64,000 nt of DNA, from assembly GCF_028826105.1 (NCBI RefSeq), contig NZ_JAQGPL010000001.1:3250501-3314500 (forward strand), in the 5' to 3' direction. The position numbers and the translations under genes are program-made. Below are positions 7,503 through 28,851 of this stretch, piece by piece. Position 1 is the first letter of the stretch; every line of letters starts with the position of its first letter. Source of the DNA: Paenibacillus humicola (GTDB taxonomy: Bacteria > Bacillota > Bacilli > Paenibacillales > Paenibacillaceae). The notes under the pieces are model-generated. The model did not search any database, had not been told where the DNA came from, and saw only the letters and a program-made list of their open reading frames with translations.

Positions 7503-8663
7503 TTACCATGGCGTCGAATCGTCCTCCTCCCGCTCCCCTGAAAGGCGGCCGGAAGCCTCAGCTTCATCAGAGGCGCGGTCCGCAGCCGCATCGCCTTCAG
7601 GCGAAGATGCCGCGCCAATCCGCTCGATCACGTCGGTCAATTCGGGCGCCTGCAGCAGCTCCACCGGCGACATCGGCTGGTCGAACAAAAACGAATCGCC
7701 TTCGATCAAGGCGACATACCGTCCGTTGTGGCGGGCGAAATGAATCGAGCGTCCGAACTCGGCGAGCGGACCTTTTACCGAAACGCCGCCCAGTTTGAAC
7801 GCCACACTCAAATTCGGCCGATGCTCTACGAGCCGTTCCGCCGCAGCGGCCACCTGCTCCTGCGGCCAGCGCTCCATCAGCTCCCGCTTCTCGCTCGCCG
7901 CCCACGCTTCGAATTGCCCCGCTTCCCGCTCCCGCTCTTCGCCGGCGTAATCCTGCCATTTGTCCTCCATATATTCGTGAACCATCGTGATCATCTGCTC
8001 GCTCATCAGCTCCGGCATCGCTTTCTCGTAGCGGACAAACCGCAGAAAATCCTCGAAATACCGGGCATGCGACGCCTGGTGGATTTTCAGCTCCCATGGC
8101 TCGAGCATGCCGTCCTCCGGCATATGGGGGTATTGGATCGATTTGATATTCCGTGCGCTGATGGCCATTTCGACGTGCGCGATGAGCTGCTTTTCGTCCG
8201 TAATGCGGGCGATCTTCTGCTCGAAGTCGCACTTCAGGATGAACAACAGCGGCTCGTCGGTATGCCGATTCGGCGTCGCTTTGACGACGATCAGGGCGCC
8301 GCCGCGTACGGCCGCCGCTTCCATATAGAGCCGGACGAGCTCGTCGGCAAAGCCGTGAAACGCCTCCTTCGATTCGGACTCCCGCAGCCGCTGCAGCAGG
8401 TTATAATTCGCGTTGCTGGCTAATTCGTAGCCCGGCTCGGCAACGAACCGGCCGATTTTCGTCGGCGCGTTCTCACTGGGAGGATGCCGCTCGGCCTTTC
8501 GCTTACAAATACGCTGAAACTCGCCGTCCAGAAACGATTGCAGCGCGCTCTCCGGGTAATCGTCCCGGTCCAGCGTCTGAAAATGCTTGAACGATTTGGA
8601 CGCGCCATCCTCCCCTTCCGCTTGGATGACAAAAAACGAGACATAATGAACGATAAAATCCAT
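7503..8663 (-). CDS. DUF3900-type conserved protein
   Basis: A 386-residue soluble protein starting MDFIVHYVSFFVIQAEGEDGASKSF. It resembles DUF3900 proteins of Bacillus and Paenibacillus. No catalytic motif is visible. The centre is rich in charged helices (EREREAGQFEAWAASEKRELMERWPQEQ) and the last 30 residues are a disordered acidic Ser/Glu/Asp tail. The general organisation (beta-rich start, long helical middle, mention of self and nucleoid-like YejK proteins) is only suggestive. It has an extended -10 element (TG-C-TATGCT) about 70 bp upstream on the minus strand. Function unknown. Confidence 0.75.
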   Translation of the reverse strand: MDFIVHYVSFFVIQAEGEDGASKSFKHFQTLDRDDYPESALQSFLDGEFQRICKRKAERHPPSENAPTKIGRFVAEPGYELASNANYNLLQRLRESESKEAFHGFADELVRLYMEAAAVRGGALIVVKATPNRHTDEPLLFILKCDFEQKIARITDEKQLIAHVEMAISARNIKSIQYPHMPEDGMLEPWELKIHQASHARYFEDFLRFVRYEKAMPELMSEQMITMVHEYMEDKWQDYAGEEREREAGQFEAWAASEKRELMERWPQEQVAAAAERLVEHRPNLSVAFKLGGVSVKGPLAEFGRSIHFARHNGRYVALIEGDSFLFDQPMSPVELLQAPELTDVIERIGAASSPEGDAAADRASDEAEASGRLSGEREEDDSTPW

Positions 8664-8998: not shown

Positions 8999-11083
8999 TC
9001 ATTCCGCCGGGCCCGCAAGCGGCGTCAGCGCGCCGACATGGATCAGCTTCAGCTTATGCAGCGCGCGCGTGCAGCCGACATAGAGCAGCTTTGCATCGTT
9101 CGGGCCGTAACGGTCTTCATCCGCATCGGCGATCAGCACGGCATCGAATTCCAGCCCTTTTGCCAGGTAAACCGGGACGACCGTCAGGCCGCCGCCGTAC
9201 GCGACCTGCTTGCTGCGCACCAGCGCCGCCTCCAGTCCGTCCGCGCTTAGCCGCTCTACGATCCGCTCGCAGGCGGACGCCGTCCGGCCGAGCACGGCAA
9301 TCGTCGAATATGCGTCGGAGGACTGCCACTGCCGCAGCGTATCCGCAATCCGGTCCAGCCGGCCAGTCTCCGACTCCGCCGCTTCGATCTCGACCGGCTC
9401 CCCGCTGCGGAAGACAGGGACGGCGGGCTTCACGCCCTCGCCCATACCGCCGAGCACGCGATTGGCGAAATCGATGATTTCCATCGTCGACCGGTAGCTG
9501 CGGTCAAGCTCGAAAAAGCCGCTTTCTTCGGCTCCGAAGAGCGAGGTCAGCTCCATCCAGCCGTGGATGCCGGCGTAGCCGTGAATGCCCTGCTGCAGGT
9601 CGCCGAGCACCGTCATTGAGGGCTGGCGCTGGCAAAGCTTCAGCGTCTCCAGCTGGAACGGCGAATAATCCTGCGCTTCGTCGATGACGACATGATCGTA
9701 CGCCGGCTGCGCGAGGCCGTACAGCCTAAGCTGGATATACACGAGCGGAGCCAAATCCTCCGGCTGCGCAAGCCCGCGTTTCAGCGCCTTGACCGCAGCT
9801 GCGCGTTCCGCAGCGGTCAGGCCCGGCGCCGTTTCTTCGCCGCCGAGCAGCGCAGCGTAAAGCCCGGAAGCGGTGAAGGAAGGGATTTTCTTGCAGTAGG
9901 CGTTCAGCCTTGCCGACGCTTTCGTCTTCAGCTTCCGGTCGGTCAGTCGGCGCGTCTTCCACTCGGACTCGAACCATCGTTTGATCCGGCTGACGAGGCG
10001 CTCGCGCCTTTTCATCAGCGGCTCTCCCCGGTCGTCAACCGCCAGCCAGTCCGCGATCGTCTCCGGCTGCAGCTTCATGCCGTCTATCGGCTCGAAAGGC
10101 TGTTCCGGCAGAAGAGAGGCCTCGATCTCGGCAAGCTTCCGGTCGACGGCCTGCTTAAAGCGGAGGCTGCCCTTCACCCGGCCCGGCGACCGTTCCATTT
10201 CCTCCCGCGTCCGCGGCCGTTCGAACCAGTACGCCAGCGCGTCCCGTTCCTCGTCAAGCCGAACCTCCTTGCCAAGCGCTTCGACCGCCCAATCCGCATA
10301 CGTCGTCTGCACGATGTCGCCGACGCCCAGCTCCGGCAGCACGCCGGAAATATAATCGAGAAACATCCGGTTCGGCGCAAAAATGATCATGCGGTCCGCC
10401 CGGATGCGGCCGGCATATTGATACAGCAAAAAGGCGAGCCGGTGGAGCGCGACGGTCGTTTTGCCGCTTCCGGCCACCCCCTGGATGAAGACCGCTTTAT
10501 TTTTGTCGGTGCGGATGATTCGGTCCTGCTCCTGCTGAATTGTCGACACGATGTCCCGAAGCTTGTTGTCCTTGCTTTCCCCAAGCCGGTAGAGCAGAAA
10601 CTCGTCGGTTACCGCCTCGTCCTCCTGGCCGCGTACATAGCTGTCCACGACCCGCTCGAGCTTGCTTTGGCGGACCATCAGATTGCGCTTTAAGTGAATC
10701 TGCCCGCCGATTTCGCCTTCCGGCGACTCGTACGTTACGGGCGTCTCGCCGCCGCTGAACGCGTAGAACAGGCTCGCTACCGGCGCCCGCCAGTCGATGA
10801 CGAGCAGACTGCCGTTCTCCCCGTCCGCGACGCCAGCCTTGCCGATATACAGCGGCTTCGGAGCGTCATGCCGGTCCTCCTGAAAATCGATTCGGCCGAA
10901 ATAAGGCTCCCGCTCCGCCACCTCGAGGCGCTGCTTGCGCTGCTCACGCTGCAGATCGAGCATCTGCTCGGTAAAATCGTCGCCGGTGTACCGGGGGCCG
11001 ATCGCGCTCAGCTGGCTGCGGATGCGGCGCAGCACGTCGCCGACGCGTTCCGCTTCTTCCTGAAAGGCACTTTGAGCATTCAT
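8999..11083 (-). CDS. helD: RNA polymerase recycling motor ATPase HelD
   Basis: A 694-residue UvrD/Rep-like SF1 ATPase of the HelD family. These proteins insert into stalled RNA polymerase and eject nucleic acid; relatives in actinobacteria (HelR) contribute to rifamycin tolerance. The N-terminal coiled-coil arm is at about residues 1-80. Walker A GVAGSGKTT follows QDRIIRTDKNKAVFIQ, then VVIDEAQDYSPFQLE (motif II), GDLQQGI (motif III), and LAKGLEFDAVLIADADEDRY plus YVGCTRALHKL (motifs V and VI). ATG 11083 has an AGGGAGG site at 9 bases. It has its own promoter, partly inside the 3' end of the upstream exporter gene, and a leader with terminator and antiterminator structures. Confidence 0.95.
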   Translation of the reverse strand: MNAQSAFQEEAERVGDVLRRIRSQLSAIGPRYTGDDFTEQMLDLQREQRKQRLEVAEREPYFGRIDFQEDRHDAPKPLYIGKAGVADGENGSLLVIDWRAPVASLFYAFSGGETPVTYESPEGEIGGQIHLKRNLMVRQSKLERVVDSYVRGQEDEAVTDEFLLYRLGESKDNKLRDIVSTIQQEQDRIIRTDKNKAVFIQGVAGSGKTTVALHRLAFLLYQYAGRIRADRMIIFAPNRMFLDYISGVLPELGVGDIVQTTYADWAVEALGKEVRLDEERDALAYWFERPRTREEMERSPGRVKGSLRFKQAVDRKLAEIEASLLPEQPFEPIDGMKLQPETIADWLAVDDRGEPLMKRRERLVSRIKRWFESEWKTRRLTDRKLKTKASARLNAYCKKIPSFTASGLYAALLGGEETAPGLTAAERAAAVKALKRGLAQPEDLAPLVYIQLRLYGLAQPAYDHVVIDEAQDYSPFQLETLKLCQRQPSMTVLGDLQQGIHGYAGIHGWMELTSLFGAEESGFFELDRSYRSTMEIIDFANRVLGGMGEGVKPAVPVFRSGEPVEIEAAESETGRLDRIADTLRQWQSSDAYSTIAVLGRTASACERIVERLSADGLEAALVRSKQVAYGGGLTVVPVYLAKGLEFDAVLIADADEDRYGPNDAKLLYVGCTRALHKLKLIHVGALTPLAGPAE

Positions 11084-11217
11084 GTGTCAGTTACCTCCCT
11101 CTAAGACCTCCGACGCATAACGTCTCGGGCTTTCTTCGCACCTGTCCCGGTAACAGCAAAGAAAGCCGCATTCGCATGCGGCCCGGTCGGATGATGAAAC
11201 TGTGTCAATTCGCGCGA
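11084..11217 (-). promoter_or_regulatory. helD leader: candidate transcription attenuator
   Basis: Read on the minus strand, the leader holds a terminator stem GCCGCAT/ATGCGGC (11182-11176 with 11171-11165) followed by TTTCTTTG. Its right arm plus the T-tract (11167-11156) can instead pair over 12 bp, with one G-U pair, with 11139-11128. The two helices share 11167-11165 and the whole T-tract, so they exclude each other. The ligand or trigger is unknown; a ribosome-, polymerase- or protein-sensed switch are all possible. The hairpin would also serve to end the upstream exporter transcript. Confidence 0.6.
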
Positions 11218-11223
11218 GAAATA

Positions 11224-11253
11224 ACTTTACCACAATCCCTCGGCAGATGTCAA
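11224..11253 (-). promoter_or_regulatory. Promoter of helD
   Basis: On the minus strand a perfect -35 TTGACA (11253-11248) and a -10 TAAAGT (11229-11224) are separated by 18 bp. The -35 box overlaps the stop codon of the upstream exporter gene, so helD can be expressed independently of it. Confidence 0.65.
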
Positions 11254-12821
11254 TCCATGCCAATGGTGGGCCGGATGTCCGCATTCGGCGTACCTTTTGA
11301 CGGCTTATCGTCCCCTGCCTGATGCTTCGGCATCAGAACGGAGCCGACGAGTGTCAGCAGCGCCAGTGCAAACACTGCCCAGTAAACGCTGTGGAGCGAT
11401 ACGGTGAGCCCCGCTTTGAGCACCGTCTGCTCGGCCGCGGGCAATTGGCCCGTCCCCGAGCCGCTCAGCAGCTGGTTGATCGAATCGATCGACAGCGAGC
11501 TGCTTATCGAACGGTCTTCACCCGCCAAATACGCGCTGAACCTGGTGTTCAGCACGCCGCCGAGCACCGCCGCGCCGACCGTGCTGCCGAGCAGTCGCAT
11601 GAACATGTTGGAGGCGGTCGCTACGCCGCGCATTTGAAACGACACGCTGTTCTGGATGGAGATCATGAACGAGGCGCTCGTCAGGCCCATGCCGATGCCG
11701 GTCAGGAAGGACCCCGCGCCGGCCCACACCGCGCCTTTCGACGGGTCGAGTGTAATGAAAAACAGCGAACCGATAAAAGCGGCAATCCCTCCCATGATGA
11801 CCGTCGGCTTCATGCCGACCTTCAAAATGAGGTGACTGGCGGCAAGCGCGGCGATCGGCCATCCGACCGTCATGACGGTCAAGGTAAACCCGGCGACGAA
11901 GGCGGAATCGCCCATGACGCCCTGTATGTAGGTCGGAAGAAAGCTCGTGAGGCCGATCACGAGCGCGCCCGACGTAAACGTCGCCGCGTTGGCCGACGAG
12001 ATCAGCCTGCTTTTCCAAATGCCGAGCGGCATCATGGGCTCCTGCGCCCTGCGCTCCTGCAAGAAAAACAAGACCGTCCCCGCAATAAAAACGAGCAGCA
12101 GCGCGATGATCTGCGGCGATGTCCAGCTCCACTCCACCCCGCCCTGAATCAGGACGATCATTAGTGCCGAAATGGAAACGAAAAACAGCGCGGAGCCCGT
12201 GTAGTCGATCGCGCGCTTCTGTTTGTCGATGCCCTCGTGCAGAAACATCAGGACGCCGGCGACCGAGAATATGCCAAGCGGAATATTCATCCAGAAAATA
12301 TACGACCAGTGCGCATACTGCACGATAAAGCCGCCGACCAGCGGACCGAGAACCGACGAAATGCCGAAAACGCTGGAGAAGTAGCCTTGAATTTTGGCCC
12401 GTTCTTTCATCGAGTACATATCCCCGATGATCGTCATCGCAATCGGCTGGATCGAGCCCGCGCCGAGGCCCTGGATCAGCCGGAATACGATAAGCATGAC
12501 CATCGACTTCGCGAGTCCGCACAGCAGCGAACCGGCCAGAAACACGACGACGCCGAAAACGAACACCGGCTTGCGGCCGAACAGGTCGGCCAGCTTCCCG
12601 TAGATCGGGATCGTGACGGCCTGCATCAGCGTGAACGCGGAAAATACCCAGGTGTACAGGGAAAATCCGCCAAGCTCGCCCACAATGCTCGGCATCGCGG
12701 TCGAAATGATCGTCACCTCGATCGCGGACATGAACATGGACAGCACCAGGGCGGCCAGAACGAGCGGGCGGCGCGTCTTTTTCTCCGCCTGCCCGGGCCT
12801 CGGGATTGCCAGTTGATTCAT
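11250..12821 (-). CDS. MFS multidrug exporter, DHA2 (EmrB/QacA) type
   Basis: A 523-residue integral membrane drug/proton antiporter with about 14 hydrophobic segments, as in QacA/EmrB. Motif A is GKLADLFGRKPVFVFG, motif B/C region RLIQGLGAGSIQPIAMTIIGD and GPLVGGFIVQYAHWSYIFWMN are as in the DHA2 family; MSAIEVTIISTAMPSI in TM1 carries the typical acidic residue. The start is ambiguous: ATG 12821 has GGAGG only two bases upstream, and GTG 12830 would add three residues. A promoter-like TATGAT followed directly by a strong terminator lies just upstream, which suggests attenuation control. Substrates cannot be predicted. Confidence 0.93.
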   Translation of the reverse strand: MNQLAIPRPGQAEKKTRRPLVLAALVLSMFMSAIEVTIISTAMPSIVGELGGFSLYTWVFSAFTLMQAVTIPIYGKLADLFGRKPVFVFGVVVFLAGSLLCGLAKSMVMLIVFRLIQGLGAGSIQPIAMTIIGDMYSMKERAKIQGYFSSVFGISSVLGPLVGGFIVQYAHWSYIFWMNIPLGIFSVAGVLMFLHEGIDKQKRAIDYTGSALFFVSISALMIVLIQGGVEWSWTSPQIIALLLVFIAGTVLFFLQERRAQEPMMPLGIWKSRLISSANAATFTSGALVIGLTSFLPTYIQGVMGDSAFVAGFTLTVMTVGWPIAALAASHLILKVGMKPTVIMGGIAAFIGSLFFITLDPSKGAVWAGAGSFLTGIGMGLTSASFMISIQNSVSFQMRGVATASNMFMRLLGSTVGAAVLGGVLNTRFSAYLAGEDRSISSSLSIDSINQLLSGSGTGQLPAAEQTVLKAGLTVSLHSVYWAVFALALLTLVGSVLMPKHQAGDDKPSKGTPNADIRPTIGMD

Positions 12822-12878
12822 TTCCTCCACATCCTGTCTTCGAACGCTTTTATCGGGATCGAACGTCCTTATTTTCGT

Positions 12879-13057: not shown

Positions 13058-13333
13058 TTAGTTCAAAACCATCAGCAGAACATAAATCGCCGCAGCATGG
13101 ACGACGAACATGAGCGGGAGCCCGATGGCGAACGAAGCGTGCTTCGTCTTGTGACGGAACAGCCGCATCGCCGCCATAGCGCCGAGCGCGCCGCCCGCCG
13201 CGCCGAAGCCGAGCAAACGGCGCTCCGGGATCCGCCGCTTGCTGTCGCCGCGCCTCGCCCGGGCTTTATCGACGCCCATCAGCACAAACGCGGCGGCGTT
13301 GATCGCGATGAAATAAAGAATGGCGGCAAGCAT
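13058..13333 (-). CDS. DUF1294 small membrane protein
   Basis: A 91-residue membrane protein with three hydrophobic helices (ILYFIAINAAAFVLMGVDKARA; LLGFGAAGGALGAMAAMRLF; FAIGLPLMFVVHAAAIYVLLMVL) and the DUF1294 motifs MGVDKARARR, RIPE and RHKTKHASF. The start at ATG 13333 is chosen for GGAGG eight bases upstream; an in-frame GTG three codons earlier overlaps that site. The function of the family is unknown. Confidence 0.88.
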   Translation of the reverse strand: MLAAILYFIAINAAAFVLMGVDKARARRGDSKRRIPERRLLGFGAAGGALGAMAAMRLFRHKTKHASFAIGLPLMFVVHAAAIYVLLMVLN

Positions 13334-13402
13334 GGCGGGCACCTCCGGTCATGGATTCGGATCGGTTGATTAACGGATGCCGACGAAGCGGCGGAGGACG
13401 AT

Positions 13403-28466: not shown

Positions 28467-28597
28467 CAGGTTACGAACAACAGGAAAGGAACGGGACGCT
28501 TGCTCCGGCCGGGCGGAATCCGGCTATAGCCGAAGCAAATTCGTATCCTGTTCAATCTGGAAGCACCTCCCTAAATCCACGTAGGCAGCGTTTTTAC

Positions 28598-28826
28598 GAA
28601 ACAGGCAGGTATCCTGACTTGAAGCCAACGCGTTCATCGTCTTCCCGCAGCGGTTATGCCGCAGTGACATGGTGATGGCGCGCTGTCCGGAAGCGGGGGC
28701 GCTGACCCCAGCGCTCGCTCGGACGCTTCTTACAGTGGCGGGTCCGTGCCGGTCTTGCACCGGTCTTCCCATTTTAAGCCGAACGCCGGAATGGCTCTGC
28801 CATTCGAGACGTTTGGCACCTGTTTC
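28598..28826 (-). ncRNA. Cobalamin (AdoCbl-type) riboswitch
   Basis: All core elements are readable on the minus strand: P1 GAAACAGG (28826-28819) pairing with CCTGTTTC (28605-28598), the conserved GGTGCC, the AATGGGAA-CCGGTGCAA region, the GCCACTGTAA block, and the B12-box-like AGTCAGGATACCTGCC. It heads the whole nine-gene btuF-to-cobQ cluster. Confidence 0.95.
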
Positions 28827-28851
28827 TCGCGTATTCAATTGTGCATCAGTA

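Follow-up and report, generated by a model that had tools for sequence, protein, structure and literature searches.

Two conserved mRNA elements at helD of Paenibacillus humicola may place the gene under RNA-level control

HelD removes stalled or rifampicin-blocked RNA polymerase. We analysed the helD locus in a stretch of 64,000 nucleotides from Paenibacillus humicola (the window, to which all positions refer), where the gene lies in the following setting:

7503-8663, minus strand: gene for a DUF3900/DUF3898 protein, downstream of helD and on the same strand.
8999..11083, minus strand: helD, encoding a B. subtilis-type RNA polymerase recycling motor of 694 aa (NCBIfam and PDB match).
11224..11253, minus strand: helD promoter, TTGACA-18-TAAAGT with TG before the -10 (promoter scan; related leaders).
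11250-12830, minus strand: MFS efflux gene, EmrB-like but below the cutoff of the EmrB model (frame and model match).

The NCBIfam equivalog model HelD_BACSU matches the window gene with 445 bits (cutoff 419) and the best PDB match to its product is chain 6wvk_H (774 aa), which we take to be B. subtilis HelD; these matches make the window gene a B. subtilis-type HelD. Another HelD-like gene, which is longer and shows 37-41% identity over the matched pieces, lies about 11 kb before the first base of the window (G000:C1:3237582-3239618). On the upstream side, the MFS gene separates helD from a DUF1294 gene (13058-13342). In three relatives (L005, L006 and L008) it is an HrpB- or DUF1294-like frame, with no MFS protein by eye, that ends before helD; the MFS gene of the window thus looks like an insertion relative to some relatives.

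An orthologue of helD is present in all 22 genomes of the genus, the 21 other than that of the window standing at 72-76% identity. The 22 leaders, together with that of P. oenotherae (L062), which differs from all of them, make up the clade set of 23 leaders used below. The preliminary description of this DNA had given helD its own promoter, and the bases concerned are indeed there: TTGACA at 11253-11248 and TAAAGT at 11229-11224 on the minus strand, spaced by 18 bp, with the -35 overlapping the stop codon of the upstream MFS gene. This is the one such site in 601 bp scanned on both strands (shuffles give 0.2), and a sense sigma-A promoter upstream of the P1 hairpin described below reaches p ≤ 0.05 in 22 of the 23 related leaders, L003 being the exception. 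These sequence comparisons support transcription of helD from its own sigma-A promoter.

Between this promoter and the start codon, five stretches can be named that compete for pairing:

11175..11188, minus strand: 5' strand of helix P3, the extended left arm of P1; weak in the window.
11163..11184, minus strand: hairpin P1 (L:R), 9 bp with a GCGA tetraloop, then TTTCTTTG (sequence; relatives).
11156..11167, minus strand: 5' strand of helix P2, the right arm of P1 plus its tail, GGCTTTCTTTGC (pairing; relatives).
11128..11139, minus strand: 3' strand of P2 (strand A), GCGAAGAAAGCC (pairing; relatives).
11105..11119, minus strand: 3' strand of P3 (strand B), lying immediately before the ribosome site; weak in the window.

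The core of P1, GCCGCAT-GCGA-ATGCGGC, occupies 11182-11165 and is lengthened by two G-U pairs to 11184-11163, and P2 is a helix of 12 bp with one G-U that pairs 11167-11156 with 11139-11128. Both had been claimed before, the first as a 7-bp stem with a T-rich tail and the second as an alternative helix that excludes it; both lie where they were placed, they are mutually exclusive because they share bases, and both are kept in relatives.

P1 is found at helD in 22 of the 22 genus genomes. In 17 aligned leaders seven of its nine pairs never vary and the arms are invariant except at two G-U positions, and the spacer between them is of 4 nt in most leaders, with 6 in L021, 7 in L012 and 8 in L007. 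The tail is more variable: among its first eight bases there are six T in the window and L013, five in L012 and three to four in the remaining 20 of 23. L007 carries an extended P1, whose long perfect stem reaches UUUUC, and lacks P2 in register; in this lineage the helD leader may contain a true terminator. The P1 region of L011 contains a tandem duplication of the unit GCATGCGAATGCGGCTTTCGCCGCCTTC. Many clade leaders, moreover, open with a short hairpin in the first 20 nt after the start site, of the GTGCTC...GAGCAC type (TGCTGG...CCAGCA in L020), which seems to hold its pairing as the sequence changes and is not evident in the window. We rejected the idea of P1 as a palindrome serving many targets: among five further copies of its stem read in the genus, two are terminator-like, with T-runs of 6 and 8 (L236 and L251), and three are not, and a looser palindrome search in 295 family genomes returned mostly different palindromes.

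The P1 of the window could mainly be the terminator of the upstream MFS gene, insulating helD from it. With the MFS gene ending at 11250 and P1 beginning at 11184, the last MFS base lies some 65 nt before the hairpin, and the U-tract of the window is among the two best of the 23. However, P1 accompanies helD throughout the genus, also in genomes whose upstream frame, by eye, resembles HrpB or DUF1294 and not an MFS protein at its end (L005, L006, L008), and it stands downstream of the helD promoter. We consider this role unlikely, if deserving of a serious hearing.

The evidence for P2 comes from the clade as a whole. In our test, the right arm of P1 with its tail was paired against the sequence up to the ribosome site in 21 of the 23 leaders (L004 and L005, with too little sequence there, were left out), and 14 of the 21 reached p ≤ 0.05 against dinucleotide shuffles, with a combined Fisher p of 7e-16 (2e-14 in a repeat) that is too small because the species are related. 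For the window alone, p is 0.068 against shuffled downstream sequence and chance is not excluded there. The same tail paired against sequence upstream of P1 gave 2 of 21 at p ≤ 0.05 (Fisher 0.53).

P2 occurs in one register in 17 of the 23 leaders; dropped from the alignment were L003 (another register), L013 (a 12-bp helix with the tail only) and L004, L005, L007 and L012 (second strand absent in register). Its 271 cells comprise 197 Watson-Crick, 39 G-U, 7 A-C and 28 other combinations, and the predominance of G-U over A-C suggests pairing in the sense RNA. Since the strands were picked for pairing, shuffled and slid controls matter: 87% of the cells are paired, against 41-59% in slid versions; the covariation score is 0.236 against 0.183 in shuffles and seven cells have both sides changed against 2.0, neither value being reached in 500 shuffles. 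Two weaker measures follow, with four pairs changed on both sides against 1.8 (reached by 15 of 500) and 14 further pair types against 12.5 (reached by 86 of 500). Covariation among the helD leaders of relatives, proposed earlier as a check, thus finds compensatory changes in P2 beyond shuffles by two measures and less clearly by two others, and on these alignments we take P2 to belong to a real covarying helix.

A third helix emerged from minimum-energy folds: in most leaders the left arm of P1 pairs with a conserved stretch that precedes the ribosome site, and the helix encloses P2. This helix, P3, reaches p ≤ 0.05 in 9 of 17 leaders (Fisher 1e-8; p = 0.305 in the window itself), and the same arm paired against upstream sequence does so in 1 of 17 (Fisher 0.50). 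With strands in the order L-R-A-B, the leader can form either P1 (L:R) or P2 (R:A) together with P3 (L:B). Taken whole, the leader of the window is no more stably folded than its shuffles (z -0.89).

The order of synthesis constrains what these helices can do. In the window, the U-tract ends at about +61 and strand A at +92, and the second strand of P2 is thus made some 30 nt after the U-tract. When growing prefixes were folded, P1 had a probability of 1.0 up to +87 and P2 had 0.97 at +135; L010, L019 and L020 behaved similarly, with a passing third fold at +94 in L019. Forced-state energies favour P2 over P1 by at least 0.9 kcal/mol in 14 of 17 leaders (mean 3.05, window 2.1); the two are about even in L016 and L017, and L018 disfavours P2 by 6.3 kcal/mol. 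By these folding models, the leader switch is a late refolding that involves no antiterminator.

Intrinsic-terminator attenuators of the trp and T-box kind carry in their leaders a GC hairpin, a U-rich tail and an exclusive second helix. The helD leader has the same parts, but here the second helix uses a strand 3' of the U-tract and forms after the terminator has been passed. The classical scheme, in which P1 terminates, P2 antiterminates and polymerase stress tips the balance, was that of the preliminary description and draws on the terminator-like P1 of the window (six T in eight), on the T-runs at two of the five other stem copies and on the long stem of L007. It founders on the late appearance of the second P2 strand: P2 cannot be an antiterminator because P1 is replaced only past the point where a terminator acts. 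A search of the transcribed stretch before P1 for a partner of its left arm gave no more than chance (p ≤ 0.05 in 1 of 23 leaders, Fisher 0.51), and on synthesis order and the missing partner we reject an antiterminator role of P2. With a weak tail in 20 of 23 leaders besides, we regard classical attenuation as improbable.

PMC12802891 shows that rifampicin induces B. subtilis helD by way of convergent promoters and that, in transcriptional fusions, HelD does not control its own promoter. That system, a rifampicin alarm shared by helD and pps, concerns the same gene in the same phylum and, like the present locus, places dedicated helD regulation between promoter and start codon; it relies on an antisense promoter in the leader, whereas we found none here and find conserved RNA folds and a start-site element instead. 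In 7 of the 23 clade leaders the best antisense site is TTCGCA or TTCTCA-18-TATxxx. In the antisense direction, however, sigma-A scores equal those of shuffles both in the clade (0 of 23 at p ≤ 0.05, Fisher 0.82) and in other leaders (0 of 30, Fisher 0.31), by a scan that is uncalibrated because a positive-control leader with the published antisense -10 before helD was not found among the class-genome leaders read. On the absence of this signal, as far as an uncalibrated scan goes, we rejected convergent promoters here and hold them to be highly improbable.

We give equally little weight to a second transcriptional reading, in which P1 is a DNA operator palindrome for a repressor. It is suggested by the near-invariance of the P1 arms and by the actinobacterial rifampicin-associated element, described in PMC12802891 as a 19-bp palindrome in the helD 5' UTR. 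The two are alike in placing a palindrome there, but that of the present leader is one of the states between which an RNA refolds. Against an operator speak the varying spacer between the arms (mostly 4 nt, up to 8) and the behaviour of P2 and P3, which co-change as RNA pairs, with G-U wobbles in P2. Leader-peptide attenuation, finally, by stress-dependent translation of the small frame (mostly MRMRLS) that an AUG within P1 opens in 23 of 23 leaders, is hardly worth entertaining and was rejected, as a ribosome site precedes this AUG in 0 of 23 and the frame has no conserved end: it spans 1 to 40 codons in 21 leaders and continues beyond the helD start in the other 2.

The second element of interest spans the translation start of helD:

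11056..11107, minus strand: start-site element, comprising the GGGAGG ribosome site, GGTAACTGA, the start codon and TCAAAGTGCC (covariance model R1).

The covariance model scores this site with 42.6 bits (E 3.7e-11). Among 91 non-duplicate helD genes reaching beyond the clade of the window, the two halves of the element, GGTAACTG before the start codon and CAAAGTGCC at codons 4-6, come together: 58 genes have both and 33 have neither. When sequences were selected by the upstream half alone, codons CAA, AGT and GCC were identical in 58 of 58, compared with a median modal-codon fraction of 0.59 over 348 columns. Constraint on the amino acids is contradicted as the cause by L128 and L136, which encode the peptide QSAYQEE but have neither the nucleotides nor the GGTAACTG half.

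As an exact pattern, GGTAACTG-N4-26-TTCAAAGTGCC has a single match in each of 118 genomes, in 13 of 47 genera, and none in the other 128 of the 246 genomes of the order; the reversed pattern, run as a control on the same 246 genomes, gave 0. All of the 48 loci read among the 118 lie at the start of a HelD-like frame, judged by eye from the N-terminus. The copy of the window is missed by the exact pattern because a C replaces the first T, and it is the covariance model that finds it. In 249 genomes of the phylum, this model hit the five that were sampled from the family of the window and, weakly, two others, and three named Tumebacillus also carry the element. Ten Paenibacillus leaders without it (L083, L099, L103, L105, L108-L112 and L123) form a separate observation: most have a GC hairpin with a T-rich tail shortly before the helD ribosome site and, by eye, mostly no obvious helD promoter of their own.

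Across 106 sequences the two halves are separated by 9 to 19 bases, a variation that fits a hairpin whose loop contains the start codon. The fold predicted in most cases, CUU-[AGG]-AGGUA-[AC]-UGA...UCA-[AAG]-UGCCU-[AUC]-AAG, pairs half of the ribosome site, whose predicted unpaired fraction is 0.00-0.20 in all 23 clade leaders; among the ten start-site sequences shown, L130 folds otherwise. Stems 2 and 3 are invariant bar one G-U position and the outer stem has two cells changed on both sides; with central stems so nearly invariant, covariation speaks neither for nor against the hairpin, and the fold rests on prediction. By that prediction, the start-site element hides the ribosome site.

Translational cis-regulatory RNAs can hide the Shine-Dalgarno site. 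The start-site element resembles them in its predicted hairpin, which pairs the ribosome site with sequence close by, and in its near-invariant internal loops; it differs in that the partner strand lies inside the coding sequence, at codons 5-7, and in having no known ligand and, in five loci, no Rfam match. In fact, Rfam at gathering score finds one match in the window, a cobalamin riboswitch far from helD (RF00174, 77.6 bits, 28587-28838, minus strand), and none at helD, and at E ≤ 5 the loci of L010, L020, L078, L086 and L130 gave three weak matches, none at the helD leader. Our search of open papers returned none on a helD leader RNA or on the start-site element, the gene name being an English word, which blunts such searches.

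A leader conserved for two folds and a hyperconserved stretch at the start site together suggest that the amount of HelD is probably set at the RNA level. Our preferred reading is that HelD is under RNA-level control, probably translational, through these two conserved mRNA elements, and we hold it tentatively, with nearly as much credence as doubt. Comparison of relatives shows that strands L, R, A and B of a clade-specific leader give either P1 or P2 with P3, and that the wider element, which joins the ribosome site to codons 4-6, is kept at the nucleotide level. In the computed course of events, P1 would fold first and be replaced by P2 and P3 once A and B are made, and the start-site hairpin would conceal the ribosome site. 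HelD output would then be held down at translation initiation, and a binder or opener of these RNAs could shift it up or down, be it a ligand, a small RNA or a protein, HelD included. The leader refolding may be a clade-specific addition to this translational control. Against our reading counts that forcing P1 or P2 hardly shifts the predicted access to the ribosome site.

We can also envision, as a distinctly unlikely extension, that the start-site element is a new helD-specific RNA sensor of Paenibacillus and its relatives, bound by HelD or by a reporter of free or stalled polymerase, such that HelD translation would rise when polymerase is blocked; in the clade of the window, the refolding from P1 to P2 and P3 would act as a timer that reads transcription of the leader.

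A hyperconserved element present in one copy per genome at the start of helD, in close to half of the genomes of the order, is unusual. The sole regulation of helD in the Bacillota that we found in the literature is that of B. subtilis (PMC12802891). If our preferred reading of RNA-level control is true, one group would control this defence gene through an RNA mechanism and another would control the same gene through convergent promoters.
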